Shown: positions 6,101-64,000 of the stretch, piece by piece
Layout: each line of letters starts with the position of its first letter
Numbering within the stretch: the stretch's first letter is position 1
Assembly: GCF_042242105.1 (NCBI RefSeq)
Contig: NC_092035.1
Coordinates: forward strand, 1,306,083-1,370,082
DNA: 64,000 nucleotides
Origin: Pempheris klunzingeri
Lineage: Eukaryota > Chordata > Actinopteri > Acropomatiformes > Pempheridae
Direction: 5' to 3'
Translations under genes and position numbers: made by a program
Notes under the pieces: generated by a model
Told to the model about the DNA's origin: nothing
The model's input: only the letters and a program-made list of their open reading frames with translations
Database searches by the model: none

Positions 6101-6978
6101 AAAAACGAGCTGTTGGTGAAGTTCACTCTGAGCTGGAGGGGTTTCCAGGCTGGGGGGCGCCTGCACGGTGAGGACACGTCGGTCAGAGGTTTGTTACCTG
6201 CTCACCTGCAGCCTGCAGACTGTTATGTCATCCCCCAGAGGAGGGTGAGAAAGTCTGGGAGCGCACAAAGTCTGAAGGCGCGCGCACCTGCCTCCTGGAA
6301 AAGAGGGTCCAAAGGGCACGGTGAGCGCGCGCGCCGGCTCCGTCTGTCGGTCTCGTGGCCTCGGTGTTTGGCTGACAATAAACAGATGAAGGCGGCCGCG
6401 GGGCCTGCGCCACCGCGGGGGGAGGAGAGGACGCGGCAGAGGGCAGGTCCAGCAGGGCGCGGTCTTCTTCTCCTCCCGCGGCACCTCATCTGCGCTGCGC
6501 TCGGATCTCTTGCAGTCCCCTGTGTGCCTGCTGCGCTGCGCCACATTGAGCCGCTTTGAGAGGCGCAAACCGCTGCGGGGACACCCTCTGACCGCCGTGC
6601 AGCCAGACTCCGCACCGCGCGCCTCCGTGTCTGTCTGCAGACCTTTTTCTCACAGCTCCGACACTGTGGGGCAGCTTTGAACCTGCCTGCCAAGATAAAC
6701 TCACCTCGCCTATTTATGCCCCTGCCTCCGCGTGCGCTCGGGACAGGAGGCTGTCGGCAGCTCACGGCTCGGGTCCGCGTCTCTGCTGCTCGTCTCCAGA
6801 GGCCACTTTTACGCGCAGGGAATGGCCACTTGTGGGGACTCGGGGATGAGTCCTGCTGCGGCGCCTCCACTCTAAGATCACAAAGGGGGACCCACGCGTG
6901 GGGGGGGGACATCAAAAGAGATTCAGCGGGGACATTTTGGCCACCTACCGGGGGGTGACAGAGCGGCCCCGGGGCGGA
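6101..6978 (+). promoter_or_regulatory. CpG-rich promoter / 5' UTR region of the hedgehog gene
   Basis: The sequence turns sharply GC- and CpG-rich from about 6150 and stays so through the ATG at 6979, as expected for a CpG-island promoter of a developmental gene. No clear TATA box is identified and the transcription start cannot be placed. Long open frames on both strands here are by-products of the base composition. Confidence 0.6.
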
Positions 6979-12900: not shown

Positions 12901-15900
12901 CTCAGTGTGATTAAAACGCCCCGATCTGTATGTTAAAGTAAAGGCCTCAGTGTGCTTAAAACGCCCCCGATCTGTATGTTAAAGTTAAGGCCTCAGTGTG
13001 CTTAAAACGCCCCGATCTGTATGTTAAAGTAAAGGCCTCAGTGTGATTAAAACGCCCCGATCTGTATGTTAAAGTAAAGGCCTCAGTGTGCTTAAAACGC
13101 CCCCGATCTGTATGTTAAAGTTAAGGCCTCAGTGTGCTTAAAACGCCCCGATCTGTATGTTAAAGTTAAGGCCTCAGTGTGCTTAAAACGTCCCGATCTG
13201 TATGTTAAAGTTAAGGCCTCAGTGTGATTAAAACGCCCCGATCTGTATGTTAAAGTAAAGGCCTCAGTGTGATTAAAACGCCCCCGATCTGTATGTTAAA
13301 GTAAAGGCCTCAGTGTGATTAAAACGCCCCGATCTGTATGTTAAAGTTAAGGCCTCAGTGTGCTTAAAACGTCCCGATCTGTATGTTAAAGTTAAGGCCT
13401 CAGTGTGCTTAAAACGTCCCGATCTGTATGTTAAAGTTAAGGCCTCAGTGTGATTAAAACGCCCCGATCTGTATGTTAAAGTTAAGGCCTCAGTGTGCTT
13501 AAAACGCCCCGACCTGTATGTTAAAGTAAAGGCCTCAGTGTGCTTAAAACGCCCCGACCTGTATTTTAAAGTAAAGGCCTCAGTGTGCTTAAAACGCCCC
13601 GACCTGTATGTTAAAGTAAAGGCGTCAGTGTGCTTAAAACGCCCCGACCTGTATGTTAAAGTAAAGGCCTCAGTGTGCTTAAAACGCCCCGACCTGTATG
13701 TTAAAGTAAAGGCCTCAGTGTGCTTAAAACTCCCCGACCTGTATGTTAAAGTAAAGGCGTCAGTGTGCTTAAAACGCCCCGACCTGTATGTTAAAGTAAA
13801 GGCCTCAGTGTGATTAAAACGCCCCGACCTGTATGTTAAAGTAAAGGCCTCAGTGTGATTAAAACGCCCCGACCTGTATGTTAAAGTAAAGGCCTCAGTA
13901 TGTTTAAAACTCCCCGATCTGTAGTTCCAAAACGGCTGCTTTGTTGGCTTCCACTGCTTTTCTTTTGCCTTTCTAACACTTTTTGTTTCCGTCCTTCATC
14001 CATAACTACGAACTTCCTCCTTGCGTGCATCTTTTAAGTATGTGGGCGTCTGCTAGCTCTTACTTTCTTCTTCTTCTGTCTCATCTGCCACTCACCCCGT
14101 GTTTCTCCAGGTTAGCTCTCCATCGCGGCTACATGTTTTTGTTTTTGTTTTTTTTTTAAATGCTTCCGTGAGCTGTTTATGGCTTTTTTGCTCTCCTCAC
14201 ACCGAAGTTTGTACTTGAGGAAAACACAGAAATCTGAACGATGAATCTCGGAGGTTGTGATGGTGAAAATAAGTCCGGTTAGCTTGGACAACACCAGTTA
14301 GGCTCATGGGTACAACTCTTTTTAAACTTTGGTCCTATTCTTACGCTTTTTAGTGTTATTCTAAGTGTGTGACAGCATCATGGAAAGGATCCCTACAGAG
14401 AGAGACCTGGAAGATCCTTTTGGTTTAACCACAAACAGCACACACACCAGACTACATTCACTAAAACAGGGATTTTAGCTTACAGAACACAGGAGCTGCT
14501 GGTCTGCTGCTGCCTCCATCTGTTAGTTTGCTTGTGTTATTGTGGGACTTTGGTGCTTTAAATGGTTAGTTCGGATACAACTCTACATTTGTGTGACACA
14601 CAATAACACAAACAAACAAGCCAATCAAGTTGACAGCAGACCAGCAGCTCCTGTGTTCTGTGAGGTAAAATGACTGGTTTTCTCAATGGAGTCTGGTGTG
14701 TTTGCATGGAGCGCTATAACAGCTGTTTGTGGTGTCATTTAGACACCAGGATATGTACAAACAGGGTCCAGGTTTAAAAACACTGGCAGAGTTCTCCTTA
14801 AAAACCACCAAAATGTCAGAAAATGCCACATGACTGTAAGACTCCGTTAAATAACGTGGGACAGCCCAGTGTTTTTGCGTCAAGCCTATTTTTTCCTGAC
14901 CAGGAAAGAATAGCAGGTGTTTAAATTGTCTCCTCATCTCTTTATGCACTGAATCAGCTGCTGAGGTCTGCAGACTCACGTATTCACACATATTCGACAT
15001 ATTCGACTCGCCGACGTGCTGAAAGTCACGCAGGCATGCAAAAATGCATCAAACACCTCCTTTAGACATTTTACACTGAGTGGTAACTGAGATTTCCCTT
15101 TTCTTTCTTTCTCCTTCTTCCTACTTCATTTTTCCCTTCCTTTCCCCCTCTCCTCCTCTCTCCTTCCCTCCCAGATCGGGTTGCGAGGGCCCAGTCCTTG
15201 ACTTGATCAGACGGGCAACCAATCAAGTTGGTATTTTTTTTTTTTTCCATGTTTTTGATTTCTCCTTTTTTTTCCTTTCTCCTGTTTTTTCCCCTCAAAT
15301 TATCCCCAAAACAAGACAAAGAAAAGAAATCGATCTTGGGAAGAAAAATCCAGCCAGCTGTGGAAAAGTTCCCCAAAAGAATCCCCCAAATCCGCCTTAA
15401 AGGCGCTTAAACGGGGGGCGGCTGGACTGTAGGCAGCAAGAGGAAACAACCACTAGGGGGCAGCAAAGCACCAGGACCCTGTAGATGAAGGACTGGACTG
15501 AAAAAGGGGGAGACGGGGAGGAAGTTAACACATTTCACCTCAGACTTCTGCTGCTTTACGTCAACAAGATGAGAAATATTTCTGGGGTCAAACCAGGAAG
15601 AGAGTTAGGAAGGTAATACTTTGAGTTTTTTTGTTTTTTTTTACCACTAACATGAGAGAAAAGTTGCTTTTTATTTAGAAAACTATCTATGGTGCTTTTT
15701 AACACAAGATAGACAAGTAAGATCCTTTTTTGTTTGACCACAAACAGCTGTTATATCAGCTTCTTCAACACCAGACTCCATTGATAAAAATAGTGATTTT
15801 ACCTCCTGGAAAACAGGACTCCCTGGTCTACTGCTGCTTCAATCAGTTCTTTTATTTGTGTTATTGTATGTCACACAAATGTTCAGTTGTATCAGAACTA

Positions 15901-17585: not shown

Positions 17586-18846
17586 CACACACACACACAG
17601 GAGCTTTTTATCGTGTTATTGTTCTTTTATGTTCAGTGTTGGACCGAAAAAAGTCAATATTTAGCTAAAGGGAGTTGAACAGATTTATTATGTGCTCAAG
17701 TGCCTTTTGTACAGAAGCCCAAACATGCCAAGACAATAAGACAGGAATGTTGATTTTTTTTAAATTAAGATTATTTCTACTTTAATAAATACTATTTTAG
17801 ATAATAAACGCCATTTTTATTTTAATAAATACATGATAATCAATTCTGTTTTTATTCTAATAAATACTATTATACTTAATACTTATACTTGTACTTTTTT
17901 AAATCTTTTTTCTTTTGCTAAATATTGTTATATATAATAAACTCTATTTTTATTCTAATAAATAATAATTTTTAATACATACTACTGTAATAAAAGGTCA
18001 AAATGACAATCTCAACATTATAATTTCTAACTTGTATATATTCTGTATTTAATAAGATATTTTTTATGTATGTTTCTGTTTTCTTGGCATCACTGAGCTT
18101 CCGTACTTCAGGATTATTCACTTCCTGTTTGACCTCCTCTCGCCCTCTGTCTTTCAGACCACTCAGTGGCGGCTAAATCTGGAGGCTGTTTCCCCGGCGA
18201 GGCCTCGGTCATTCTGGAAAGCGGCGCTCAGAAGTCCATCGGCGACCTGCGGCCCGGCGAGCGCGTCCTGGCCTCGGCGGGCGGCGGCGAGCTGGTTTAC
18301 AGCGAAGTCCTGGCCTTCCTGGACCGTGACCCCTTGACCCCGAAGCTCTTCTACACCCTGCAGACCGAAGCCGGGGCCCGCCTCTCGCTCACCGCCGCCC
18401 ACCTGGTGTTTGTGTCTGAGGGGAACTGCTCAGAGGGGGCGCCGCCGGCCCCTGGCGCCCTCAGGACTGTGTACGCCAGTGCGGCCCAGCCGGGACAGTG
18501 CGTGCTGGTGGGGGACGGCGGCGCCGGACGGGGGCTCCCTGGGGCTCGGCTGTCCCGGATCACCCGGGTCGGCCTGAGGGAGAGCAGGGGGGCGTTCGCG
18601 CCTCTGACCCGGCAGGGGACGGTGGTGGTGGACGGCGTGGTGGCGTCCTGCTACGCGGTGGTGGAGCAGCACGGCCTCGCTCACTGGGCCTTCTCGCCGC
18701 TCCGGCTGGTTCACAGCTGGACCGGATCCACCGGGAGCCACGGCGACGGGATGCACTGGTACCCCCGGCTGCTGCACTGGCTGGGGAGGATGCTGCTGGA
18801 CTCGCGGCGCCTCCACCCGCTGGGCGTGGCTCAGGACGCCAGGTGA
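6979..18846 (+). CDS. Desert hedgehog (hedgehog-family morphogen)
   Basis: Three coding exons: 6979-7278, 12200-12461 and 18158-18846, all with GT..AG borders, give 416 residues. Residues 1-23 form a signal peptide; Cys24 starts the CGPGRG motif that is palmitoylated in hedgehogs. Exons 1-2 encode the signalling domain ([46 protein letters not shown]). Exon 3 encodes the self-processing Hint domain: cleavage is expected between Gly197 and Cys198 in AKSGGCFPG, with Thr266 and His269 (LTAAH) and a later ASCYAVV motif. In the family this yields a cholesterol-modified, secreted ligand for Patched. The first exon ends at ...MTQ and the second starts RCKDKLN, as in all vertebrate hedgehogs. The signalling domain resembles Shh and Ihh as much as mammalian Dhh, so the paralogue call rests on linkage to alpha-tubulin and a BIN gene (as at human 12q13). 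Introns are 4.9 and 5.7 kb. Confidence 0.9.
9560..9990. repeat. Possible dispersed teleost repeat fragment
   Basis: The wording around 9660-9860 ('atggccgacttcctgttggg', 'ctaccagatttcgcacatgg') resembles an interspersed repeat common in fish introns, recalled from general knowledge and not verified. No ends or target-site duplication were found. Confidence 0.25.
10863..11437. mobile_element. hAT-like non-autonomous DNA transposon with perfect 8-bp TSD
   Basis: The 575-bp element starts TAGTGATG and ends CATCACTA, a perfect 8-bp inverted terminus. It is flanked by the identical 8-mer GTCCTAAC at 10855-10862 and 11438-11445. An 8-bp target-site duplication is the hAT signature. The interior has repeated ATCGAT words near the left end and no transposase frame, so it is a MITE-type passenger. 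Confidence 0.85.
12550..13925. repeat. 45-bp minisatellite, 30 copies, in hedgehog intron 2
   Basis: Thirty counted copies of a 45/46-bp unit containing 'aaggcctcagtgtg', 'ttaaaacgcccc' and 'gatctgtatgttaaag'. Left-hand copies alternate variants (gattaaaa/gcttaaaa, cgcccc/cgccccc/cgtccc, gttaag/gtaaag). Right-hand copies from about 13490 are almost uniform 45-mers with GACCTG instead of GATCTG, so the array grew in at least two phases. Because 45 is divisible by 3, the uniform part leaves a frame open (15-residue repeat with [13 protein letters not shown]), which is not a gene. Confidence 0.97.
14345..14765. repeat. Foldback repeat, copy 2
   Basis: Shares the 'gtgtgacagcatcatggaaa' segment and the 'ccagactacattcac' motif with the element at 780-1475, followed by a reverse-complement arm ('gagtctggtgtgtttgcatg', 'gctgtttgtggt'). 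Lies in hedgehog intron 2. Confidence 0.75.
15712..16095. repeat. Foldback repeat, copy 3
   Basis: Diverged member of the same family: 'tgaccacaaacagctgttat' on the left and 'ataacagctgtttgtggtta' on the right form the inverted arms. Lies in hedgehog intron 2, 1 kb after copy 2. Confidence 0.7.
16850..17100. repeat. Direct duplication of an AT-rich ~95-bp segment
   Basis: The block at about 16850-16948 recurs at about 17005-17098. Both contain 'ccaactagtaataataaaa' and 'ctatttcatgaatcctgtat'. AAT-triplet runs inside both copies vary in length. Confidence 0.8.
17443..17600. repeat. (CA)n microsatellite
   Basis: About 155 bp of CA dinucleotides with scattered CT interruptions. The His-Thr reading frame across it is an artefact. 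Confidence 0.97.
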
Positions 18847-20677: not shown

Positions 20678-23600
20678 ATGGCCGAGACACCGAAGGGGGT
20701 CACCGCCGGGAAACTGGCCATCAACGTCCAGAAGAGGTTCACCAGGGCGCAGGAGAAGGTAAACTGACCGGACACCTTGAAGCCCAACCGGCCAACTTTT
20801 CCCCCTCAAACACGACCAGTGAATCACCCCCGGGGGGGCAGTTAATGTGCTGCTGCACACCAGGCCGCTTAAGGGGGTTTTAAGGGGTTAAATGAACCTT
20901 TCCCTTGACCTCAAGTGTTTGTTCACCCAGAAATATACTCATATAAATGTGTGTTTATTGGGTTTAAGGGGTTTTCAGTGGCAACAGGTCAATAGCATTA
21001 AGGCCAAATATCAGATTAAACCTTAAAACTTAAAAAGAAACTTAAAAATTAAGTCAGATTTGTGATGTTGTTGTGTTTTTAATGCACAGTTTAAGAGGTG
21101 AAATCCCCTTAAAATGCAAATGAGCTTCAACCTCAAAACTGCGCACAACACTGTAAGTTAACTGTTTTAAGAACCCTTATAGCTCATTTAAGGGATTTGT
21201 CAAATATTTAAGATTAACCATGAAGCCAAATCCCTTAAGTTTTACCTTAAATTTACCCTTTAATAGCTGTTAAGGTACCTTAATGAGATGATTGACACAT
21301 TGAAATATATTATGCACAGTTTAAGAGGTAAAATCCCCTTAAAACTCAAACCTGGGGGCAACCCTTTAAGAAAAACACCCTGAATTTTCACTTTAAGTTA
21401 AGGGCGTCTTATAAACCCTTAAACTGTGCAGAAAACTTATTATTACAGCTTATTTAAGGGGTTTGTCAAATGTTTGAAATTAAGGGGTAAGTCTTGTGCC
21501 ACCTTAAGGTGTCCAACTGTCACCATGAAGCCAACTCCCTTAAGTTTTACCTTAAATTAGAGCACTTTAATGTGACAATTGACAGATTGTAAAATATGAT
21601 GATGCTTTTAATGGAGTTTTAAACGTGTAAAATCCCCTTAAAATTCCTTAAATAACATGAAACTCACTTAAAGGGGCCGTGATTTTTAGATCAGTGGTAA
21701 AAAGCAGAAATGTCCTTAATGCTACATCGCCACCCACTTAAACCCCTTAAAGTACAAACACACTGAATTTGTGCCTTAATTTGATAAAAGTTTTACTTAA
21801 TGTACAAAGGGACGCTTTGAATGGTGTTTGGTAGAGTTAATGGTAAAAATTGGTAAAATTAAGGGATCTTTTGCTACCAAACATATTAATCTAAACCAGG
21901 GGTCACCAACCTTTTAGAAGCTGAGAGCTACTTCATGGTACTGAGTCAGACGAAGGGCTACCAGTTTGTCACACTGCTCTGAAATAACAAATGAGCTCAG
22001 TTTGCCTTTAGTTATATATTATTATTATAAATGATTAATGATACTCATCTTTGTGAAGACACTGATCACGTTAGTGATTTCTCACAATAATCATCAACAA
22101 TGACTTAACAAGGTGGGAAACAGATAAAATCAATATTACACATCTAATTTCTATTAGCCCCCAGTTGGACACAGGGGACGTGCCCCCCCCCTTTCCATTA
22201 AGTTGTCCCCCCAAAAATCATTGGAAACACATATAAATAATTTGGAATAATATAGTTATGTTCAGTAAAAAGCACAACACACGCGGTGCTAATAATAAAC
22301 GTAAAACAATGCGTTTCTTAATTGTTGAAAAATTATGACCCCCCTATTCCTCACAGTGGTTTGGTCCACATGCTGTTCTCCGATGCAGCAGCTCTGTTTC
22401 AGTGAGTCACCGATAGCAGTTAGCATCGTTGTTTCTTTGATAACTTCTCCGTCTGAAATGCCTCCTTCTTCCTCTTTATCAGAAAATGTGTCGCTCTAAA
22501 CTGCTGCTGCTGCTTACCCAAAGCTGCCTTCGGCTCTTCCCGGTGGGCAGTTAGCATGGCAGTTAGCATGCTAGTTAGCATGGCAGTTAGCATGCTAGCT
22601 CTGTGACACGTAGTGAAGTGTCTCTCCACATTGAGCCGCTTTGTCGTCGCCCCACTAATGAGACACACGTAGTTTTCTTTCACAGTAGTAACAAAGAACT
22701 CTTCCTCCCATTCACTGTGAAAATGATGAGCTTTCTTTCTTTTTTCTGCCATGTTTTTTGGGTTAGAAACCGCATTCAGCTCCTTCATCTCCACTGCGCC
22801 TGCTAGCTTACTCTGCACGAGCGCCAAAGTTCAACACTGACCTTTGACCTTTGAACTCAAAGAGGTCAGAGTTCACCTAAAACTATCTAAACTAATTCTT
22901 TTATTTTTAAGATATTGTCATTTTCAAATCTATATAAATACAAGTGTGATTAAAAAAAGAATAGCAACAGAAAAATATTAAATTTTAGACGCAGCTCACT
23001 GGTGAGTTGTGCTATTTTTAGAACAGGCCTGCAGGGGGCGACTCATGTGGTCCTTGGGGGCGACCTGGTGCCCGCGGGCACTGTGTTGGTGACCCCTGAT
23101 CTAAATGAGGGTGTTTGATGTGTTTTAAGGGGTAAATTAAGGATTAAATCAAGTTTGTGTTATCATACACTTTGGAGGATTAACGCTCTCAAAAACACAG
23201 AAAATCATAATTTTAAGAAAGAAAAAGGAAAGAAGGAACAAAATAGCAAATAACTTAAGTCACGTTGCAAATGTCACGTAAGGCGACGATCTGAAATGAT
23301 TGCAGTTCGGTTTGGTTTAGAAAAAAGAAAAGATTTAAGTTGAAATCATCACGTTAGTTACGGAAATGATGTCACTTCTGTTGTAACTTCTGTTAAAAGC
23401 TGCTTTACGTTTGTGGCTTACGTTAAAATAACTCAAACACCTGAGAGAAGTTCTGTTAAATGTTACGTTTTGTACTTGACGTAAGTTAGAATAACTTAAT
23501 GTTGACGTTTTGGTTCTTTACGGGACGTCAGCATTGCTTTCATGGGTGGAGTTACGGAAGTTATATTATGTTGCTTAAGTCAATCTTTCGTTAAAAATAT

Positions 23601-25501
23601 CGTGACACGACATGACATTCCTGGGGGAAGTTACGCTATGTTACGTAATGTTACGCTAAGTTACGTAATGTTACGTTAAGTTACGTTAAGTTACGTTAAG
23701 TTACGTTAAGTTACGTTAAGTTACGTATTGTTACATTATGTTACGTTAAGTTACGTAACAGTTAAAAGTTGAAATTAAATTGACTTTTGGTTTCATGCAA
23801 ACATCAGTTTTCTGAGTAAAGTATCGGAAGTTACGACACATACATAACGTAATGTAACTTCCGATAAAAATGACGTTACACAACTTAAGTTAAAATAAAT
23901 CAACTTTGACATTTTCAGCGGCCTCCAGGGTGAAGTTACGTGAGCTGTTCTATGTAACGTATGTGTCGTAACTTCCGATAAAAGTTACGTTAGTTATTTG
24001 GCGTCAGTTAAAATAACTAAATATTGACACAAACTTTCATGAGTGAAGTTACGTAAGTTTCTGTACGTTACAAATCTGTCGTAACGTCGGTTAAACGATG
24101 CGTCGCGTACATGAAGTCAGTCATAATAACTTTATCGCTCTTTCCACGACGTCACATGACTTCCTGTTTCGCTCCCGTCATCATTTCCTCCCCTTTGAGG
24201 ACATTTGCTTCGAGGAAACGTAGAAAAGTCTGAACTGGAGGCTTCAGGGTGCCGATGCAGCACAGAGGAGGGAGTTTCAGACGACACTGAGAGCAGCGAG
24301 TAAAGAGGAAGGTCAGGGTATCATCTTCCCCGGCGGCCGGCTGAGGTGGAGGAGGGGAGCGCCGGCTTCAGCTGTCCGTCTGCTGGCACGCCGCCCTCCA
24401 CCCTGTCTGTTCGTGGCTCTGTGGACGGAGCACAAAGAGTCTCAACGTGACGAAAAATAACTTAAACGTTTCAAACAGCGTCACCCAGACGTCCTTAAAG
24501 GAAAACAACCTTTTCTGTCTCAAAGTTTATGACTTTTTGTCTCGTTAAATTCTCCTTTTGTTGAGTTTTTGCCATAAATTTACACTTTTACTGTCAATTG
24601 TTCTTGTAAAAATGACTTTAATTGCAAAATATTATCATTCGTCATCGTTCTATAATCATGTTTTGGCTTCTTCTCGTAAAGTTTCACCTTAATCTCATAT
24701 TATTCCCACATGACTCTCAGAATTAAGGCTTGATTCTCAGAATATTATCACTCTTTTATCCAAATGTCAGAGTTTTCTTTTAATTGTTGGTCAAACATGG
24801 CGGCCACAGTTTTACATCAGAGAGACAAAGACGGAAAGATTCAGGGGAAATAATCTCTATAATCTGTAGGTGAGAAACAAGAAGTTTGTTGTTTGTGGGT
24901 TATTGATCGATCAGGTTTGAGCGAAGAGCGATGATGATTGAACTTTTTTAAGAGGATGTTTCTGCGTTTGTGTGCAAAAATCAGAGAGATTTCACCATCT
25001 TTATGTCACTTAATGACACTTTTCTCTCAGACTTTAAATATTTCTACACATTTCATTAAAGAAAACCCAACAGAGTCACAGAAATGTTGACAAAGAGACA
25101 GAAAACAACCACAAAGAGACAGAAAATGGCCACAAAAACAGACTTTGGTTTGTTAAAATGGTGAAAACTAGTCACTCCTTCACAATAAAAGCACCACCAC
25201 CTCGTATCTGTGTGTATTTACGGTCCAGCTCTGTGTTTTTATTCCTCTCTGTGATCAGTAATTTGAATCCCGAGTTAACAAACCTCAAAGTCGCCCTGCT
25301 TGGCCTGCACACCTGTCCCTCCCAGGACTCCCAGCATGCCTCACTGCTGTGGGCGGGGCTCGGATGTGTGTGTGTGTGTGTGTGGGGTGTGTGTATCTAT
25401 CTTTAGCCCTGCTGGGCCTCCTCCTCATCACTCTTAATACCCCACAAACTGCCTCTGTGTGTGTGTGAGAGGGTATTTTTGGGGGCTTGAAATTGAACAC
25501 C

Positions 25502-26610: not shown

Positions 26611-29281
26611 AAGTAGATTTATGGATTAATACAGGTGACATATTATATGTCATGTCAAAACACCTCTTAATATTTAAATCCAACTATAATTCTGTTTTAT
26701 TGTGTGTTTATGGACGTGATCAGACCAGTAAATTAAAAGAAAAATATATATTGTGTAAATATAATATTTTAAAAATGTATTTCAATAATTATAATAATTA
26801 TAAATATAATTAAATTAGAAAAAAGAAAAATACTGTAAAATATTAAAGAAAAAGAAAATGACTTACATAAAATAAGATAATTAGATAGATAAATAGATAA
26901 TTGGAAACCAAATGAAATAAAAAACAAAAATGTAAAATAAAATAATTATTATATATCAAGATAGTAATAAAAGTTGACAGTGACAGTACAGTGCAGGTGT
27001 GACAGGAGGCTACAGGTCTGATATTGATCTCTATCACCTGATAATCAGTCAGTAGCAGCTGAAACATTACTGCAGCGTTGACCTTTGACCTCCTCGTCCT
27101 GACATCCTGAACGTGAACGCAGCTTCAAACTGGAACACACACACACACACACACACACACACATCCTCTGATTAACTGATCGATTGGTGGATTTCTGATC
27201 GATTGTCGTCTCCTCCGCAGGTGTTGCAGAAACTCGGCAAAGCGGAGGAGACCCGGGATGCCGCGTTCGAGGAGATGGTGGCCAACTTCAACAAGCAGAT
27301 GGTCGGTTTGCCAACTTTAAAAAAAAAAATCATGTTTTAATCATCATGTCTGAAAATATAGAACGTTTTCTCTAAAAACTGCCTTTTTTTGAATGTACTT
27401 TGGTGCACGGGGTAATCAGATTACAAGAAATAAGAATATGTTTCATGTTACTAAAATGCAATGTGTGTTCAGTGAGTGACGTCTGACCCTGTGGAGACAT
27501 CTGAGGGCTGAACTAATGCTGTATTTATGTTTGAATTACCTTTCCTGCTGTTTGGGCTCTTTCAGACAGAAGGCACCAAACTGCAGAAGGACCTGAAAAC
27601 CTACCTGATAGCCGTGAAAAGTGAGTGACCTTTAGAGAAATGAAGCCGATCAGCTGCTGCACCAGCTGAGAGCTCATTTTATTCCTTTTTTTGTGCTCTT
27701 TGTTGCAGCGATGCACGATGCGTCACGGCGGCTGCAGGACTGTCTGGCCGACATGTACGAACCCGAGTGGTTTGGTAAAGAGGAGATCGACTCGCTGGCA
27801 GAGGTGAGACGAGGACACGGCAGTAAGAGGAGGAACATTTACTTTTCCTTTCTTCTTCCTGTCGTCTTTGCTTCCACCTCAGCTGGACTTAAAGAAGAAC
27901 TCCAGTACTTTTACACCTGGGCCCTATTTTTTTTACATTATGGAAAGGATCCCTACAGCCGTTATATCGCTCTCTGCACACACACCAGACTCCATTCACG
28001 AAAACACAAATTTTACATGGGAGTTGCTGCATTACCGCAATCTCACTCAGTTCATTTTTTTGTGATATTATGTGACTTTTGGTGTTTTAAATATAGTTCA
28101 GATCCAGTGCAGTATTTGTGTAGCACACAATAAGACAAACAAACTAATCAATCAAGGCAGCAGTAGCCCAGTAACTCCTGTGTCCTGTTCTCTAAAATCC
28201 CTGTTTTAGTGAATGTAGTCTGGTGTGTGTGCTGTTTGTGGTTAAACCAAAAGGATCTTCCAGGTCTCTCTCTGTAGGGATCCTTTACATGATGCTGTCA
28301 CACACTTAGAATAACACTCTGAGCCTGTCAGTGGATCAAACAAGCTCTTTTAGTGGACCTACTGTGATCTACTGGACCAGTTCCAACACTTTTAGTACCT
28401 ACCAGTCATTTAGACACCAGAATATGCATAAATGAATCCTTTCTTTCCTTCTCCGGTCTCTTTTCCTTCTTTCTCCCGCTAACACACTCTCTCTCTCTCT
28501 CTTTCTGACCTGCATGCATCTCTCTTTCCGCCATGAAGGAGTTGATAGAGAAGGAGATGGACATTAACCTGGAGGTAAAAGGCTGCGGCGGCGTCCAGTG
28601 TTTCCCACAGTGTTATTTCACCAGCCGATCGGTGAACAGTTCACACCAGGAAACAAAACTGCTGGATGAATAAACTTAGTGAACATGTGGGAAACACGGG
28701 CCCAGCTGTGCAGTAGAGGAGGTTTTAGAGCAGAGCTGTACTGCAGTATTTCCATTTTAGGGAAATATTACACATTTTACTCCTCTACAGCTGGTTAGTT
28801 TGAGGATTTAGATAATTAATACAAAATAGTAAGTAGATAATATGTGATATATGATAATGACATGATAATATAATATATGATAAATGATGATTATATACTA
28901 ATTTTGGTGCTTTAAGTGTATTATAATACTTCTATATATATTTATATATAATCATTTATATATAATATATATATATTTAATACTACTATTTCAATACTAC
29001 TTTAATACTAATAATTTTGTACTTTTCTGCTACTTTAAGTCTACTAGTGATATCTAATATTTATTTATTTATAAAATAAAATAATAATAATAACAATAAT
29101 GTTATTATTATTATTGTTATTATTAATTTAATTGTAAAAAGTAATTGTAGCCTAAAAATATCAGAAATTGTGTCGAAGAGAGTAGAAGTAGAAAACAGAG
29201 AATCCTCCGACGTCTTTGGTTTTAGTTTATCTGTAGTTATTATTGTTCTTCTTCTTCTTCTGATGATGATGATGATGATGA

Positions 29282-39921: not shown

Positions 39922-41556
<1,635 letters not shown>

Positions 41557-43099: not shown

Positions 43100-45455
<2,356 letters not shown>

Positions 45456-48711: not shown

Positions 48712-51903
<3,192 letters not shown>

Positions 51904-54359: not shown

Positions 54360-55291
54360 TTAAAGACGTTTGGCGGACGAGAGGAAGAGGGAGAGAGGCT
54401 GGAGGAAAGCGACACGGAGGAATGGAGTTTCCTGTGAGGTGTGAGGTGAGTCAGACACACAGAAGCCGACAAAAACAAACACAAACTAACAGAAGCGTTA
54501 GCATAGCTATAGCTAGCTAGCCGGCTAGCTATAGCTATGCTAACGCTAACTTCTGTACAGTTCGTCTGTTTTCGGCGAATAAACGAACAAACACGAGGTG
54601 ACAGTTATAGATCATTATTAGAGGGAATAGGTGGGTTTATTTGTGTGTTTTTCACAGTTTTCCTGCAAAATAAATAATTCCAGATTTAACCCTAAATGTA
54701 CCACTGCACTGCACAAACAGGACGCACCTGTCTGTATTGGATTTTAGTGCTTTTTTACATTTTATTGTCATGTTTTTATAGTAAATTGATGATTTTTTAA
54801 ACATTATCCTCCAATGGATGTGAGTGATTGTCTTTATATTAATACTAAAATTAACCACTACACCTGGTTGTGATCAAATTTGACTGCTTCTTCCATTTTA
54901 TTATTATATTTTCAAAGAAAAGTCACCTTTTAAAACCCTCCATTAAAAGCAATGCAGTGGTTCCACCTCACTATAATCTGATTATACTGGACAATCAATA
55001 GAACGCACCTGTTTGTATTACATTTTAGTGCTTTCTCCATTTTTTATTCATATTTTAGTATTAAATTAATGGTTTTATTGTGAATAGCTTCCATTTAATT
55101 GCACCAAGAGCTTCCAGAGATGATTCCTACACGGGACACGCCTCTTTGGTAAAGTGTGTTGCTGTATTGTAGGATCGTGACTCTCAGCTGTGCTGCACAT
55201 TAAGACCTTTATTCTTTTATTTCTCTGCAGACGTGTGGCCTCAGTCGACGTCGACGATGACAGAACATCTTCTCCGTCCTGACGCTCTCAG
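54360..55291 (+). other. Possible exon pair of an unrecognised transcript
   Basis: A candidate first exon ends at 54445 with donor gtgagt; a candidate second exon at 55231-55291 lies between 'tttctctgcag' and gtagca. A further acceptor 'gtttttcag' precedes 55398. The short frame from ATG 54423 (MEFPVRCE) runs into a stop soon after the join, so this would be noncoding or wrongly joined. Low confidence. Confidence 0.2.
54491..54556. repeat. Near-perfect palindrome centred on GCCGGC
   Basis: GTTAGCATAGCTATAGC, CTAG words, the centre CCGG, and then the mirror sequence ending GCTATGCTAAC. The left arm has one extra CTAG and the right arm one extra GCTAAC-type word. Long enough to extrude as a cruciform. 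Confidence 0.9.
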
Positions 55292-55397
55292 GTAGCAGCT
55301 CTCCTCTTATTATTGATATGTTGAGAGTGTTTGGTGGCTTGTTAAAGTAAAGTCAGTGTGTGTTTTCTCATTGGATCCTGTGTTGTGTGTTTTTCAG

Positions 55398-57290
55398 GCC
55401 CCCGTGGGAGTTGAACCAGTGTCTCCAGATAACGTGTCAGCTGCTGATCTCATTGAGCTGACTCTGGAGTGATGTTTCATGTATTGGAACTTCTATTTAT
55501 TGTGTTTGTCAGCACTGAGGTAAAGTAAAGTAATAATGAGAGTCAGCAGGGATTTGAACCCATGTTTCCAGTTCACCTGTCAGTCGCTTATCTCACTGAG
55601 CTGACTCTGGAGTGACTTTTCATGTATTGGAACTTCTATTTATTTTGTTTTAAGAGGACAAAGCATCCAAAGTAAAGAGTCAGCAGGGATTTGAACCCAT
55701 GTTTCCAGATCACCTGTCAGCTTCTGATCTCACTGAGCCGTTCCTCTAGTTACTCATCAAGTGCTGGAACTTGTACTTATTGTATTTGTCAGCACTGAGG
55801 AGGAAAAAGCACCCAAAGTAAAGAGTCAGCAGGGATTTGAACCCATGTTTCCAGATCACCTGTCAGCTTCTGATCTCACTGAGCCGTTCCTCTAGTTACT
55901 CATCAAATGCTGGAACTTGTACTTATTGTGTTTGTCAGCACTGAGGAGGAAAAAGCATCCAAAGTAAAGAGCGTCAGTTAGGATTTGAACCCATGTTTCC
56001 AGATCTACTGTCAGCTCCTGATCTCACTGAGCTGTTACTCTTTTGTTCCTCCATGTTGTATTTGTGGTTCAGGTGACGGAGGAGAAAAGTGTGAAAAGAG
56101 TGAGAGTTGAACTGTGAAGCTCAGAGTGTCAAACTGCCTCTTCACTCTGTGAGCTACTCATCAGTACACCAGCTGGCTGTTGGTTCTTCTTCTTGTTCAC
56201 ATTACTGTGAAGAAAAGTGTTAAAATGATCAGTAGATCACTTCCTGTGTTTGATCCTTCCACCTCAGCCTCCTCACATCAGCTGCTGATCTCACTGAGCT
56301 GACTCTGGAGTTGCTCATCATCTGCTGGAAGTTGTACTTATTGTGTTTGTCAGCACTGAGGTAAAGTAAAGTGAGTCAGACGGGAGTTGAACCCATGTTT
56401 CCAGATCACCTGCCAGCTGCTTATCTCATTGAGCTGACTCTGAAGTTGCTTTTTATGTATTGGAACTTCTATTTCTTGTGTTTGTCAGATCTGAGGTAAA
56501 GTAAAGTAGTAAAGAGTCAGCAGGGGTTTGAACCCATGTTTCCAGATCACCTGCCAGCTTCTGATCTCACTGAGCCGTTCCTCTAGTTCCTCATCATGTG
56601 CTGGAACTTGTACTTAATGTATTTGTCAGCACTGAGGAGGAAAAAGCACCCAAAGTAAAGAGTTAGCTGGGATTTGAACTCATGTTACCAGATCACCTGC
56701 CAGCTGCTTATCCCACTGAGCTGACTCTGGAGTTACTTTTTATGTATTGGAACTTCTATTTCTTGTGTTTTAAGAGGACAAAGCATCTAAAGTAAGGAGT
56801 TAGTGGGGATTTGAACCCATGTTTCCAGATCACCTGCTTATCCCACTGAGCTAATTCTGGAGTTACTTTTCATGTATTGGAACTTCTATTTATTGTGTTT
56901 GTCAGATCTGAGGTAAAGTAAAGTAGTAAACAGAGTTAGCAGGGATTTGAACTCATGTTTCCAGATCATCTGCCAGCTGCTTATCCCACTGAGCTGACTC
57001 TGGAGTTACTTTTTTATGTATTGGAACTTCTATTTCTTGTGTTTTAAGAGGACAAAGCATCTAAAGTAAAGAGTTAATGGGGATTTGAACTCATGTTTCC
57101 AGATCACCTGTCAGCTCCTGATCTCACTGAGCCGTTCCTCTAGTTACTCTTTTGTTCCTCCATGTTGTATTTGTGGTTCAGGTGACGGAGGAGAAAAGTG
57201 TGAAAAGAGTGAGTTGAACTGTGAAGCTCAGAGTGTCAAACTGACTCTTTACTCTGTGAGCTACTCATCAGGACACCAGACACCCTGTGG
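55398..57290 (-). repeat. tRNA-box tandem array, block 1 (minus orientation)
   Basis: Units of about 140 bp read on the minus strand. On the + strand each shows 'gatttgaacccatg' (B box reversed), 'ccagatcacctg', 'atctcactgagc' (A box reversed) and 'tactcatc'. The block has about 13 B-box sites. It includes a non-unit spacer ('caggtgacggaggagaaaag') at about 56080-56110, repeated at 57180-57210. Confidence 0.9.
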
Positions 57291-57600
57291 GTAGTGATGG
57301 CTGATGGAGGCTTTGTTGAAGCTTCGACACTTGATTCAAAAACTGGTTCATGACTCGAGGCTTCAATGACACAGAGCTCCAGTAGGACCTCTAGTGGTCA
57401 ATAAGATGAAGTGCAGTGGAGACGTGTCATTTCTTGGTTCATGGACTGTTTGGGATTTGATTCTCATCCTCATTCCTGTTCACTACACTACACTATACTA
57501 TATAGATTCATTCCACACAGAATGAAATATTTCAAGCCTTTATTTATTTTAATTGTGATGATTGTGGCTCACAGCTCATGAAAACCCCAAATTCAGTATC
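57291..57600. repeat. Polarity-switch spacer 1
   Basis: Starts 'gtagtgatggctgatggagg' and runs through 'cttcgacacttgattc', 'acctctagtggtcaataag' and 'aatgaaatatttcaagcc'. A near-identical copy lies at 62148-62455 and an inverted one at 62795-63105. The first ~70 bp also occur inverted at 60832-60898. It separates array blocks of opposite orientation. Confidence 0.9.
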
Positions 57601-60600
57601 TCAGGGTTCAAATCCCCACTGACTCTTTACTTTGGATGCTTTGTCCTCTTAAAACACAAGAAATAGAAGTTCCAATACATAACAAGTAACTCCAGAGTCA
57701 GCTCAGTGGGATCAGGAGCTGACCGGTGATCTGGAAACATGGGTTCAAATCCCCACTAACTCTTTACTTTAGATGCTTTGTCCTCTTAAAACACAAGAAA
57801 TAGAAGTTCCAATACATAAAAAGTAACTCCAGAGTCAGCTCAGTGGGATAAGCAGCTGGCAGATGATCTGGAAACATGAGTTCAAATCCCTGCTGACTCT
57901 CTTTACTACTTTACTTTACCTCAGATCTGACAAACACAATAAATAGAAGTTCCAATACATGAAACGTAACTCCAGAATTAGCTCAGTGGGATAAGCAGGT
58001 GATCTGGAAACATGGGTTCAAATCCCAGCTTACTCTTTACTTTGGATGCTTTTTCCTCCTCAGTGCTGACAAACACAATAAGTACAAGTTCCAGCACATG
58101 ATGAGTAACTAGAGGAACGGCTCAGTGAGATCAGAAGCTGACAAGTGATCTGGAAACATGGGTTCAAATCCCCACTGTCTCTTTACTTTGGATGCTTTGT
58201 CCTCTTAAAACACAAGAAATAGAAGTTCCAATACATAACAAGTAACTCCAGAGTCAGCTCAGTGGGATAAGCAGCTGGCAGATGATCTAGAAACATGAGT
58301 TCAAATCCCTGCTGACTCTCTTTACTACTTTACCTCACCTCAGATCTGACAAACACAATAAATAGAAGTTCCAATACATGAAAAGTAACTCCAGAATTAG
58401 CTCAGTGGGATAAGCAGGTGATCTGGAAACATGGGTTCAAATCCCAGCTGACTCTTTACTTTGGCTGCCTTTTCCTCCTCAGTGCTGACAAATACAATAA
58501 GTACAAGTTCCAGCACATGATGAGCAACTAGAGGAACGGCTCAGTGAGATCAGGAGCTGACCGGTGATCTGGAAACATGGGTTCAAATCCCCACTAACTC
58601 TTTACTTTAGATGCTTTGTCCTCTTAAAACACAAGAAATAGAAGTTCCAATACCTAAAAAGTAACTCCAGAGTCAGCTCAGTGGGATAAGCAGCTGGCAG
58701 ATGATCTGGAAACATGAGTTCAAATCCCTGCTGACTTTCTTTACTACTTTACTTTACCTCAGATCTGACAAACACAATAAATAGAAGTTCCAATACATGA
58801 AAACTAACTCCAGAATTAGCTCAGTGGGATAAGCAGGTGATCTGGAAACATGGGTTCAAATCCCCACTAACTCCTTACTTTAGATGCTTTGTCCTCTTAA
58901 AACACAAGAAATAGAAGTTCCAATACGTAAAAAGAAACTCCAGAGTCAGCTCAGTGGGATAAGCAGCTGGCAGATGATCTGGAAACATGAGTTCAAATCC
59001 CTGCTGACTCTCTTTACTACTTTACTTTACTTTACCTCAGATCTGACAAACACAATAAGTATAAGTTCCAATACATGTAAAGTAACTCCAGAATTAGCTC
59101 AGTGGGATAAGCAGGTGATCTGGAAACATGGGTTCAAATCCCAGCTCACTCTTTACTTTGGATACTTTTTCCTCCTCAGTGCTGACAAACACAATAAGTA
59201 CAAGTTCCAGCACATGATGAGTAACTAGAGGAACGGCTCAGTGAGATCAGAAGCTGACAGGTGATCTAGAAACATGGGTTCAAATCCCCACTGTCTCTTT
59301 ACTTTGGATGCTTTGTCCTCTTAAAACACAAGAAATAGAAGTTCCAATACATAACAAGTAACTCCAGAGTCAGCTCAGTGGGATCAGCAGCTGTCAGCTG
59401 ATCTGGAAACATGAGTTCAAATCCCTGCTGACTCTCGTTACTTTACTTTACCTCAGATCTGACAAACACAAGAAATAGAAGTTCCAATACATGAAAAGTA
59501 ACTCCAGAATTAGCTCAGTGGGATAAACAGGTGATCTGGAAACATGGGTTCAAATCCCCACTAACTCCTTACTTTAGATGCTTTGTCCTCTTAAAACACA
59601 AGAAATAGAAGTTCCAATATGTGAAAAGGAACTCCAGAGTCAGCTCAGTGGGATAAGCAGCTGGCAGATGATCTGGAAACATGAGTTCAAATCCCTGCTG
59701 ACTCTCTTTACTACTTTACTTTACCTCAGATCTGACAAACACAATAAGTAGAAGTTCCAATACATGAAAAGTAACTCCAGAATTAGCTCAGTGGGATAAG
59801 CAGGTGATCTGGAAACATGGGTTCAAATCCCAGCTTACTCTTTACTTTGGATGCTTTTTCCTCCTCAGTGCTGACAAACACAATAAGTACAAGTTCCAGC
59901 ACAATATGAGTAACTAGAGGAACGGCTCAGTGAGATCAGAAGCTGACAGGTGATCTGGAAACATGGGTTCAAATCCCCACTGTCTCTTTACTTTGGATGC
60001 TTTGTCCTCTTAAAACACAAGAAATAGAAGTTCCAATACATAACAAGTAACTCCAGAGTCAGCTCAGTGGGATAAGCAGCTGTCAGATGATCTGGAAACA
60101 TGAGTTCAAATCCCTGCTGACTCTCTTTACTTTACTTTACCTCAGATCTGACAAACACAAGAAATAGAAGTTCCAATACATGAAAAGTAACTCCAGAATT
60201 AGCTCAGTGGGATAAGCAGGTGATCTGGAAACGTGGGTTCAAATCCTAGCTAACTCTTTACTTTGGATGCTTTTTCCTCCTCAGTGCTGACAAATACAAT
60301 AAGTACAAGTTCCAGCACATAATGCGTAACTAGAGGAACGGCTCAGTGAGATCAGAAGCTGACAGGTGGTCTGGAAACATGGGTTCAAATCCCATTCAAA
60401 TCTTTACTTTGGATGCTTTGTCCTCTTAAAACACAAGAAATAGAAGTTCCAATACATAAAAAGTAACTCCAGAGTCAGCTCAGTGGGATAAGCAGCTGGC
60501 AGATGATCTAGAAACATGAGTTCAAATCCCTGCTGACTCTCTTTACTACTTTACTTTACCTCACCTCAGATCTGACAAACACAATAAATAGAAGTTCCAA

Positions 60601-60831
60601 TACATGAAAAGTAACTCCAGAATTAGCTCAGTGGGATAAGCAGGTGATCTGGAAACATGGGTTCAAATCCCAGCTCACTCTTTACTTTGGATGCTTTTTC
60701 CTCCTCAGTGCTGACAAATACAATAAGTACAAGTTCCAGCACATGATGAGGAACGGCTCAGTGAGATCAGAAGCTGACAGGTGATCTGGAAACATGGGTT
60801 CAAATCCCCACTAACTCTTTACTTTAGATGC
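57601..60831 (+). repeat. tRNA-box higher-order array, block 2 (plus orientation)
   Basis: About 24 B-box sites (gttcaaatcc) at 134-147-bp spacing. Three unit types recur. Type a has 'ggaacggctcagtgagatca' and ends in 'tgctttgtcctcttaaaac'. Type b has 'gagtcagctcagtgggataa', 'cagctggcagatgatctgg' and 'ctgctgactctc'. Type c has 'gaattagctcagtgggataa', 'gcaggtgatctgg' and mostly 'atgctttttcctcctcag'. The order is mostly a-b-c with occasional b-c pairs made by hybrid c units, so the array is a higher-order repeat of about 415 bp. It carries no protein-coding gene. Confidence 0.92.
59784..59859 (+). ncRNA. Representative tRNA-like unit (type c): A box, B box, T5
   Basis: A box TAGCTCAGTGGG at 59784-59795 fits the consensus TRGCNNAGYNGG. 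B box GGTTCAAATCC at 59820-59830 fits GGTTCRANYCC. A T5 run at 59855-59859 would stop RNA polymerase III, giving a transcript of about 80-90 nt. The middle does not form a normal anticodon arm, so it is not a functional tRNA. Many type c units share all three signals. Transcription is not shown. Confidence 0.45.
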
Positions 60832-60900
60832 CTGGAGTCATGAACCATTTTTTGAATCAAGTGTCGAAGCTTCAACAAAGCCTCCATCAGCCATGACTAC
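60832..60900. repeat. Polarity-switch spacer 2
   Basis: Reverse complement of the first ~70 bp of the spacer at 57291 ('gtcatgaaccattttttgaa', 'cgaagcttcaacaaagcctc', 'catcagccatgactac'). After it the array runs in the opposite direction. Confidence 0.85.
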
Positions 60901-62014
60901 CTGTTGGTTCTTATTTACATTACTGTGGAGAAAAGTGTTAAAACTATCAGCAGGTCACGTCCTGTATTCGATCCTTCCACCTCAGCATCCTCACATCAGC
61001 TGCTGATCTCACTGAGCTGACTCTGGAGTTACTCATCATCTGCTGGAAGTTGTACTTATTGTGTTTGTCAGCACTGAGGTAAAGTAAAGTGAGTCAGAGG
61101 GGAGTTGAACCCCTGTGTCCACATCACCTGTCAGCTTCTGATCTCACTGAGCTGTTCCTCTAGTTACTCATCATGTGCTGGAACTTGTACTTATTGTATT
61201 TGTCAGCACTGAGGAGGAAAAAGCATCCAAAGTAAAGAGTCAGCAGGGAGTTGAACCCATGTTTCCAGATCACCTGCCAGCTGCTTATCTCATTGAGCTG
61301 ACTCTGAAGTTGCTTTTTATGTATTGGAACTTCTATTTCTTGTGTTTGTCAGATCTGAGGCAAAGTAAAGTAGTAAAGAGTCAGCAGGGGTTTGAACCCA
61401 TGTTTCTAGATCACCTGCCAGCTTCTGATCTCACTGAGCCATTCCTCGTCATGTGCTGGAACTTGTACTTAATGTATTTGTCAGCACTGAGGAGGAAAAA
61501 GCACCCAAAGTAAAGAGTCAGCAAGGATTTGAACTCATGTTACCAGATCACCTGCCAGCTGCTTATCCCACTGAGCTGACTCTGGAGTTACTTTTTATGT
61601 ATTGGAACTTCTATTTCTTGTGTTTTAAGAGGACAAAGCATCTAAAGTAAGGAGTTAGTGGGGATTTGAACCCATGTTTCCAGATCACCTGCTTATCCCA
61701 CTGAGCTAATTCTGGAGTTACTTTTCATGTATTGGAACTTCTATTTATTGTGTTTGTCAGATCTGAGGTGAGGTAAAGTAGTAAACAGAGTTAGCAGGGA
61801 TTTGAACTCATGTTTCTAGATCATCTGCCAGCTGCTTATCCCACTGAGCTGACTCTGGAGTTACTTTTTATGTATTGGAACTTCTATTTCTTGTGTTTTA
61901 AGAGGACAAAGCATCTAAAGTAAAGAGTTAATGGGGATTTGAACTCATGTTTCCAGATCACCGGTCAGCTCCTGATCTCACTGAGCCGTTCCTCTAGTTA
62001 CTCTTTTGTTCCTC
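60901..62014 (-). repeat. tRNA-box tandem array, block 3 (minus orientation)
   Basis: Same units as block 1, on the minus strand. Much of it (about 61000-62014) aligns in order with 56250-57160 in block 1, showing a large direct duplication. Confidence 0.9.
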
Positions 62015-63317
62015 CATGTTGTATTTGTGGTTCAGGTGACGGAGGAGAAAAGTGTGAAAAGAGTGAGTTGAACTGTGAAGCTCAGAGTGTCAAACTGACT
62101 CTTTACTCTGTGAGCTACTCATCAGGACACCAGACACCCTGTGGGTAGTGATGGCTGATGGAGGCTTTGTTGAAGCTTCGACACTTGATTCAAAAACTGG
62201 TTCATGACTCGAGGCTTCAATGACACAGAGCTCCAGTAGGACCTCTAGTGGTCAATAAGATGAAGTGCAGTGGAAACGTGTCATTTCTTGGTTCATGGAC
62301 TGTTTGGGATTTGATTCTCCATCCTCATTCCTGTTCACTACACTACACTATACTATATAGATTCATTCCACACAGAATGAAATATTTCAAGCCTTTATTT
62401 GTTTTAATTGTGATGATTGTGGCTTACAGGTCATGAAAACCCCAAATTCAGTATCTCAGAAAATTTGAATATTGTGAAAATAATAATAATAATAAAGGTA
62501 ATACATTTTATTTCTAATGCTCTTTACATTTGGAGGTACAAATGTCAAAGTGCAAAACGTTCAGTATTGTAGACTCACAGTGTCTCACTGTAATCAGCTC
62601 ATTAATTCAAAACACCTGCAGAAGTTTCTCTCAGTCTGGTTCACTAGGCGACACAAAGTGCTGTATCCAATCAATCATCATTAGTTCTGCCAAGTATTGA
62701 TTACGTACATGAACACACTTTCCAGAAGGGCGACATCTCTGTATAATTCATTTAGTTTTTTCAATTGGTTTTATGTAATATTCAAATTTTCTGAGATACT
62801 GAATTTGGGGTTTTCATGAGCTGTAAGCCACAATCATCACAATTAAAACAAATAAAGGCTTGAAATATTTCATTCTGTGTGGAATGAATCTATATAGTAT
62901 AGTGTAGTGTAGTGAACAGGAATGAGGATGAGAATCAAATCCCAAACAGTCCATGAACCAAGAAATGACACGTCTCCACTGCACTTCATCTTATTGACCA
63001 CTAGAGGTCCTACTGGAGCTCTGTGTCATTGAAGCCTCGAGTCATGAACCAGTTTTTGAATCAAGTGTCGAAGCTTCAACAAAGCCTCCATCAGCCATCA
63101 CTACCCACAGGGTGTCTGGTGTCCTGATGAGTAGCTCACAGAGTAAAGAGTCAGTTTGACACTCTGAGCTTCACAGTTCAACTCACTCTTTTCACACTTT
63201 TCTCCTCCGTCACCTGAACCACAAATACAACATGGAGGAACAAAAGAGTAACTAGAGGAACGGCTCAGTGAGATCAGGAGCTGACAGGTGATCTGGAAAC
63301 ATGAGTTCAAATCCCCA
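61935..63317. repeat. Large palindrome, ~540-bp arms, 303-bp spacer
   Basis: 61935-62473 is the near-identical reverse complement of 62777-63317. The arms contain an array unit, the 'caggtgacggaggagaaaag' spacer, the 'gtagtgatggctgatggagg' segment and a retroposon-like tail ('aatttgaatatt'). The spacer 62474-62776 is single copy in the window. A 69-residue open frame occurs in both arms and again at 57085-57294, only because the copies are recent. Confidence 0.92.
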
Positions 63318-64000
63318 CTGACTCTTTACTTTGGATGCTTTTTCCTCCTCAGTGCTGACAAATACAATAAGTACAAGTTCCAGCACATGATGAGTAACTA
63401 GAGGAACAGCTCAGTGAGATCAGGAGCTGACCGTTGATCTGGAAACATGAGTTCAAATCCCCACTGACTCTTTACTTTGGATGCTTTGTCCTCTTAAAAC
63501 ACAAGAAATAGAAGTTCCAATACATAAAAAGTAACTCCAGAGTCAGCTCAGTGGGATAAGCAGCTGGCAGAGGATCTGGAAACATGAGTTCAAATCCCTG
63601 CTGACTCTCTTTACTACTTTACTTTACCTCAGATCTGACAAACACAATAAATAGAAGTTCCAATACATGAAAAGTAACTCCAGAATTAGCTCAGTGGGAT
63701 AAGCAGGTGATCTGGAAACATGGGTTCAAATCCCCACTAACTCCTTACTTTAGATGCTTTGTCCTATTAAAACACAAGAAATAGAAGTTCCAATATGTAA
63801 AAAGTAACTCCAGAGTCAGCTCAGTGGGATAAGCAGCTGGCAGATGATCTGGAAACATGAGTTCAAATCCCTGCTGACTCTCTTTACTACTTTACTTTAC
63901 TTTACCTCAGATCTGACAAACACAATAAGTAGAAGTTCCAATACATGAAAAGTAACTCCAGGATTAGCTCAGTGGGATAAGCAGGTGATCTGGAAACATG
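63235..64000 (+). repeat. tRNA-box array, block 4 (plus orientation), runs off the window
   Basis: Types a, b and c again on the + strand, continuing to the last base. The true length of the array is therefore unknown. Confidence 0.9.

Follow-up and report, generated by a model that had tools for sequence, protein, structure and literature searches.

The window analysed here is a stretch of 64,000 nucleotides from contig NC_092035.1 of the fish Pempheris klunzingeri, and its last part, 55398-64000, is a tandem array of short units carrying A and B boxes of the RNA polymerase III (Pol III) type. The array starts about 3.5 kb past the third of three tubulin-like open reading frames (ORFs) and continues beyond the window end at 64000. 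A search of the whole window for paired boxes (A box TAGCTCAGTGGG with at most three mismatches, B box GGTTCAAATCC with at most two, gap 20-60 nt) returned 46 pairs, all at 55398-64000 and none elsewhere. The gap between paired boxes takes only two values, 31 nt in unit types a and b and 24 nt in type c (start-to-start distances 43 or 36 nt). This agrees with the initial annotation, which had described more than 40 units of about 140 bp with the two boxes 36-45 nt apart, and so does Tandem Repeats Finder, which from 55406 on gives periods of 137-146, 273 and 419 bp. The array is a real feature. Four B boxes within it are unpaired, one at 57605 at the start of the plus-strand block and three two-mismatch matches in spacers; 17 matches to the loose A-box pattern are also unpaired, and one of these, at 63965, belongs to a c unit truncated at the window end.

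The motifs are strongly concentrated in the array. With at most one mismatch GGTTCAAATCC has 47 matches in the window, all in the array, compared to a mean of 1.29 and a maximum of 5 in shuffled sequences, while 27 of the 30 matches to TAGCTCAGTGG at the same stringency lie there (shuffle mean 1.08). All 45 matches to the linker motif at up to two mismatches are in the array, and the shuffles contain none. The A box quoted in the initial annotation is present as exact TAGCTCAGTGGG in type c only; types a and b carry variants of it, CGGCTCAGTGAG or close in a and CAGCTCAGTGGG or close in b. Compared with the general A/B consensus, the consensus cores match at 17 of 19 positions in a, 17 of 19 in b and 19 of 19 in c. 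None of 3000 random 145-mers reached a score of 16, in a control that allowed gaps of 28-34 nt and thus does not cover the 24-nt gap of type c. Using patterns picked after viewing the units, RGTTCAAMYCC is kept in 46/46 and ..GCTCAGTGRG in 43/46 of the a, b and c units.

Each unit consists of a core running from the A to the B box (54 nt, 47 in type c) and a linker, about 140 bp in total. When units were typed by their core and the preceding linker, using motifs chosen after reading the units, 53 could be assigned: 16 a, 19 b, 12 c (including the cut one), four d and two e. They do not form the one homogenised array that had been proposed. The region is instead made up of four blocks of alternating strand (-, +, -, +), separated by spacers of about 470 bp and one junction, with a palindrome centred near 62.6 kb, where a putatively hAT-like foldback element lies. 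The features are as follows.

55398-57132, minus strand: block A1, 13 units in irregular order, from inner to outer a b c b a b e d a a a b b
57133-57604, no strand: spacer S1, a d unit at 57252 and then the left part of the hAT-like element
57604-60831, plus strand: block B, 23 units, b b c abc abc bc abc bc abc abc a
58026-58444, plus strand: an abc higher-order unit given as an example, 419 bp, measured between the ends of two successive c B boxes
60832-60996, no strand: junction J, a truncated hAT-like end (to 60899) and then array-derived e-to-d linker sequence
60997-61986, minus strand: block A2, 8 units, from inner to outer a b c b a b a e
61987-62472, no strand: spacer S2, the left palindrome arm, containing the d unit at 62106 that precedes block A2
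62146-63103, no strand: foldback hAT-like element of 958 bp at the palindrome centre, with ends TAGTGATGG...CCATCACTA
62473-62776, no strand: palindrome-centre loop, without an inverted partner
62777-63260, no strand: spacer S3, the right palindrome arm, an inverted copy of S2 (99.6%) with a d unit at 63132
63261-64000, plus strand: block B2, a a b c b c, the final c incomplete at the window end

The order is clearest in block B, where the 23 units read bbcabcabcbcabcbcabcabca and linker and core match in 23/23 cases, L going with b, N with c and M with a. Exceptions to this pairing are confined to the edge blocks, where linker Q is found before some a units, and N before some b units and before e. 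The five abc steps of block B were reached by 3 of 20,000 shuffles of the unit order, and the eight bc steps by 1 of 20,000. Measured between successive c B boxes the trimers are 419, 419, 416, 416 and 424 bp, close to the higher-order repeat of about 415 bp that had been annotated, and the two dimers of the block are 278 and 273 bp. Over the ten possible pairs the five trimers are 94.7-97.8% identical, and the two dimers are 98.2% identical to each other, whereas mean identity between types over all units is 66.6% for a-b, 74.6% for a-c and 79.9% for b-c (gap columns are not counted in the trimer and dimer values). Trimers that resemble each other far more than the types do are what a higher-order repeat usually shows, and the array has the head-to-tail units with concerted homogenisation that define satellite DNA. 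Box pairs, typing, trimer identity and shuffles together support the annotation of tRNA-like units in a higher-order tandem array. The a-b-c arrangement with b-c variants holds for the block at 57604-60831; it does not extend to the irregular edge blocks, and two further types, d and e, have to be added. The likeness to a centromeric satellite is best taken as an analogy.

Types d and e are less informative. The boxes of d match the A consensus at 6/9 and the B consensus at 8/10 positions while the remainder is near random, and their sum of 14 is reached by a random 145-mer with a probability of 0.03, d having been picked for its A box. Type d may still share an old ancestry with a, b and c. 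In e the 5' half resembles b whereas the 3' half is unrelated, so that e is probably a hybrid or border piece. For its best box pair the sum is 15, a value reached by 0.5% of random 145-mers, and e may yet be tRNA-like.

The flanks of the c units suggest how the b-c dimers arose. Of the 11 c units, the five that continue into linker L have CCACTAACTCC after the B box, and the six that continue into linker M have [CT]AGCT.ACTC there. In a units the B box is followed by CCACT in 7/16 cases and by the first ten letters, CCACTAACTC, in 2/16. Because of these flanks the dimers are read as c/a hybrids, and since a and c have about 30 nt in common, ending in the B box, the simplest account would be that a single a unit was lost by exchange within this shared stretch.

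The strand alternation is reflected in long repeats. Blastn finds a direct repeat between 56278-57604 and 61131-62459 (96.2%, same direction) and an inverted repeat between 61258-62473 and 62777-64000 (85.3%). Spacer S1 is 99.2% identical to S2 and 99.6% to S3, gap columns not counted, and is fused directly to the plus block at 57604. The alternating strands and near-identical spacers could in principle stem from collapsed or misjoined repeats in the assembly, and the window ends inside the array. The copies differ, however, by substitutions and by the presence or absence of whole units, and block B is a single coherent ordered array, although misjoins at the block borders might still occur. 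An assembly artefact is considered improbable.

The foldback element gives some indication of the order of events. The two sequences that flank it directly are inverted copies of one another and do not form a direct duplication, and a truncated copy of its end lies in junction J, at about 60833-60899. The left flank, CCTGTGGG, is alike in 7/8 letters to the flank at 60900 in the junction, CCTGTTGG. This comparison of S1/S2 with J, and with a linker in A1 that has no interruption, suggests a target duplication of 8 bp, the length typical of hAT elements. Insertion of the element probably predates the inverted duplication.

When it comes to the tRNA identity of the units, the programs give a negative answer. 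ARAGORN with default settings finds no tRNA gene in the array and Rfam has no match at gathering scores. At E<=10 Rfam displays 15 sub-threshold matches in 55000-64000, none of them a tRNA (one lower-scoring match of the same clan is not displayed); they include tmRNA T-loop fragments of 9-12 bits, and two smaller stretches of the array likewise gave no tRNA match. Folds of five example cores, one per type, are no better than those of shuffled sequences (z -0.39 to 0.26). The units are thus neither recognised nor folded as tRNAs, and functional tRNA genes were rejected on these grounds. A relaxed ARAGORN run (70% setting) does call some units, with 239 calls over the whole window and 60 over the array stretch of 9 kb; the density in the array is about twice that of the flank, and this was given no weight because so many calls are made elsewhere. 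What does relate the units to tRNA is a tRNA-type head with A and/or B box, as found in satellites derived from short interspersed elements (SINEs). The boxes and their spacing would point to ancestry in a tRNA-type promoter.

Such a promoter could have come with a tRNA gene as well as with a SINE. If the units descend from tandem tRNA genes, the array would be a decayed tRNA gene cluster, an alternative that overlaps with the source left open below and is regarded as possible, though not the favoured one. The 31-nt gap fits the geometry of a tRNA. Genes for tRNA (tDNAs) and their pseudogenes are clustered in zebrafish (65%) and stickleback (87%), while those of pufferfish and medaka are mostly isolated (PMC2888827). 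A three-gene tandem cluster in Arabidopsis has a homogeneous core and variable, pseudogene-rich edges (PMC12308677). The absence of tRNAs from the default ARAGORN and Rfam results, and folds at the level of shuffles, count against this alternative, but they show decay and not another origin.

A tRNA-like promoter is also found in the long terminal repeats (LTRs) of Helenus-type terminal-repeat retrotransposons in miniature (TRIMs). Fish Helenus LTRs have been aligned with tRNA-Val, and LTR-11_DR forms tandem arrays in zebrafish (PMC10886601). In the present array two d copies were called Val(GAC) by relaxed ARAGORN, a setting that also yields many chance calls. A period of about 140 bp is, on the other hand, too short to comfortably hold an LTR, a primer-binding site (PBS) and a polypurine tract (PPT), and no clear PBS or PPT was seen by eye, the inspection being unscored. 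The LTR-11_DR group is moreover limited to Ostariophysi, with other Helenus families in sterlet, paddlefish and coelacanth (PMC10886601). A tandem array of such an element is accordingly given little credence.

The array is poor in CpG. The four blocks have observed/expected ratios of 0.115, 0.098, 0.067 and 0.033, and the stretch across the palindrome centre has 0.267, compared to 0.636 in the flank, where the lowest 3-kb window has 0.339. Long germline methylation is the likely cause, and the locus has probably been methylated for a long time. Within types the mean pairwise difference, computed on 10/16 a, 15/19 b and 11/11 c units, is 0-0.030 in the A box, 0-0.055 in the B box, 0.015-0.084 in the stretch between the boxes and 0.024-0.036 in the linker body.

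Runs of at least four T on the sense strand were looked for in 55398-57400, 57604-60831, 60997-62200 and 63100-64000, and every one of them falls in a linker that precedes an a core, in the e-to-d linker or in a spacer. In block B all six are found in the six M linkers, and the b-c dimers have none between c and b. The trimer at 58026-58444 has a single such run, T5 at 58050, between c and a. As the T runs of block B lie only in M linkers, a predicted Pol III transcript, whichever unit it started from, would end after the next c preceding an M linker. The layout of a Pol III unit, with A box, B box, tRNA-like spacing and a T-run terminator, is thus present at the sequence level, with the 24-nt gap of c as the deviating value. 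One could then imagine the abc trimer as a Pol III unit in which several A/B promoters read to a single T4-T5 stop after c. The products would be short poly-tRNA-like RNAs, one to three units long, and given the inversions they would come from both strands. If so, these RNAs could feed double-stranded RNA silencing or TFIIIC-based chromatin borders near the tubulin genes; the trimer is, however, very unlikely to work in this way, and the placement of the T runs follows from shared linker descent and is not an independent sign of transcription.

More generally, the array might be a working element, either as a B-box array that binds TFIIIC and acts as a chromatin boundary near the tubulin genes or by making Pol III RNAs. 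Boundary action or a role as RNA source is possible, and both the retention of the two box patterns in nearly all a, b and c units and the restriction of T runs to certain linkers and spacers would fit. The same constancy of the boxes is expected from recent shared descent, though, the CpG shortage points to long methylation, and the 24-nt gap of type c is short for a tRNA-type promoter. Such a function is judged unlikely.

Taken together, the array is probably a degenerate tRNA-derived satellite that has grown by unequal exchange, its source being either a tRNA-derived SINE or a tRNA gene, and presumably without function. A Pol III-type internal promoter sequence from such a source would have become the tandem unit of about 140 bp. 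The variants a, b and c would then have been fixed in order and the a-b-c trimer multiplied by unequal exchange, while exchange inside the block of about 30 nt shared by a and c, B box included, would have dropped single a units and left b-c dimers. A hAT-like element would later have landed in the array, and an inverted duplication and a direct duplication of about 4.85 kb would have produced the alternating strands.

Several observations weigh against this reading. In the other 55 kb of the window, neither blastn (E<=1e-10) nor nhmmer turned up a parental SINE or tRNA gene, the one nhmmer match there having an E of 3. The a-type flank of the junctions between c and linker L is not fixed in a units, and is also found after the b unit at 57699. 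TG and CA ratios in block B (1.25 and 1.21) exceed those of the flank (1.21 and 1.13) only slightly, and reach 1.34 and 1.33 in A1; with so modest an excess the CpG shortage may partly reflect the composition of the founder. The linker body is as constant as the boxes, and conservation of the boxes is therefore no proof of selection or promoter use. 

At the outer array end, at 55398, no SINE tail was recognised by eye, and the other end lies beyond the window. The exact linker pattern occurs elsewhere in two viral and five bacterial contigs (four of them Pseudovibrio), and these are taken as chance, judged from the single match in each alone.

The remaining part of the window contains a hedgehog gene, with an HH_signal domain at 6850-7455 and a Hint module at 18133-18843 according to Pfam. 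The three tubulin-like ORFs, which from recognising the sequence by eye are presumably alpha-tubulins, lie close together in the same orientation on the plus strand (40558-41556, 44391-45455 and 50908-51903), and Tubulin domains were confirmed by Pfam for the third. A Pfam scan of six window ORFs at E<=0.01 gave matches in three (tubulin, hedgehog signal and Hint) and none for 27636-28130, 22423-22830 and 58884-59225. The last lies within the array and was rejected as a protein-coding candidate. A minisatellite at 12569-13923 has 30 copies of a 45-bp unit (95% matches) and long ORFs on both strands; GTTAAAGTAAAG, a motif of this unit, recurs at about 55342, just left of the array. Another repeat, at 23628-23758, is of the AAGTTACGTT type (10/30-bp, 84-87% matches). 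Between the tubulin genes and the array, 55231-55291 is a short exon-like stretch bounded by AG and GT, and the acceptor-like TTTTTCAG follows at the very start of the array, at about 55398.

The initial annotation knew of no name for such an array. As a claim of novelty this does not hold, as SINE-derived satellites with alternating sub-variants are already described in squamates, the only group covered by that work (PMC10702118). The squamate sSat1-3, the nearest case in the papers searched, have tandem units of about 70-290 nt that stem from portions of SINEs with a tRNA head and in some cases include box B, and two or three locus-specific sub-variants that often alternate in dimeric or trimeric patterns; longer arrays are more uniform (PMC10702118). 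In contrast to the array described here, their parental SINEs are known and the terminal unit is mostly longer and extends to the SINE end; neither feature was found in this window. The introduction of the same paper also lists amphibian tandem families with a tRNA-like segment, PolIII/TAN in newt, OAX/satellite I in Xenopus, Rana/polIII and, in Hydromantes, Hy/polIII, calls the link to SINEs inconclusive and doubts the tRNA origin of Hy/polIII (PMC10702118). Their units are about 360, 250 and 200 nt, and longer in OAX, and a three-type order is not mentioned for them in that introduction.

Tandem tRNA genes offer a further comparison. The Arabidopsis SYY (Ser-Tyr-Tyr) tDNA cluster is a three-member tandem repeat with a core and more variable, pseudogene-richer edges, but most of its members encode functional tRNAs, which the satellite units do not resemble (PMC12308677). 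The SYY cluster is methylated and silent in most tissues, and expressed in root tips despite high methylation (PMC12308677). The CpG depletion fits silencing of the satellite, yet a highly methylated cluster may still be expressed. The tDNA clusters of zebrafish and stickleback, likewise with tRNA genes and pseudogenes together in fish, are recognised as such (PMC2888827), while the satellite units are recognised neither by default ARAGORN nor by Rfam. Helenus LTR-11_DR, which is arranged in tandem in zebrafish, likewise has Pol III boxes of tRNA-like type (PMC10886601); the satellite has a shorter period and shows no clear LTR, PBS or PPT to the eye. In a fish, a link between a putative tRNA-derived SINE and one type of 5S rDNA has also been described (PMC3464664), while the passages searched in PMC4833346 contained nothing on the subject.

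The satellite family was not met in the literature search, which lay outside most subscription papers, Dfam and Repbase, and it may still have been described. It looks like a well-ordered further case of the tRNA- and SINE-derived satellites known in amphibians and reptiles. By itself it is no new system; it would show tRNA-derived monomers at the stage of an ordered higher-order satellite in which the exchange junctions are still readable, and may serve as a useful small model for the birth of satellites from gene-like or dispersed sequences.

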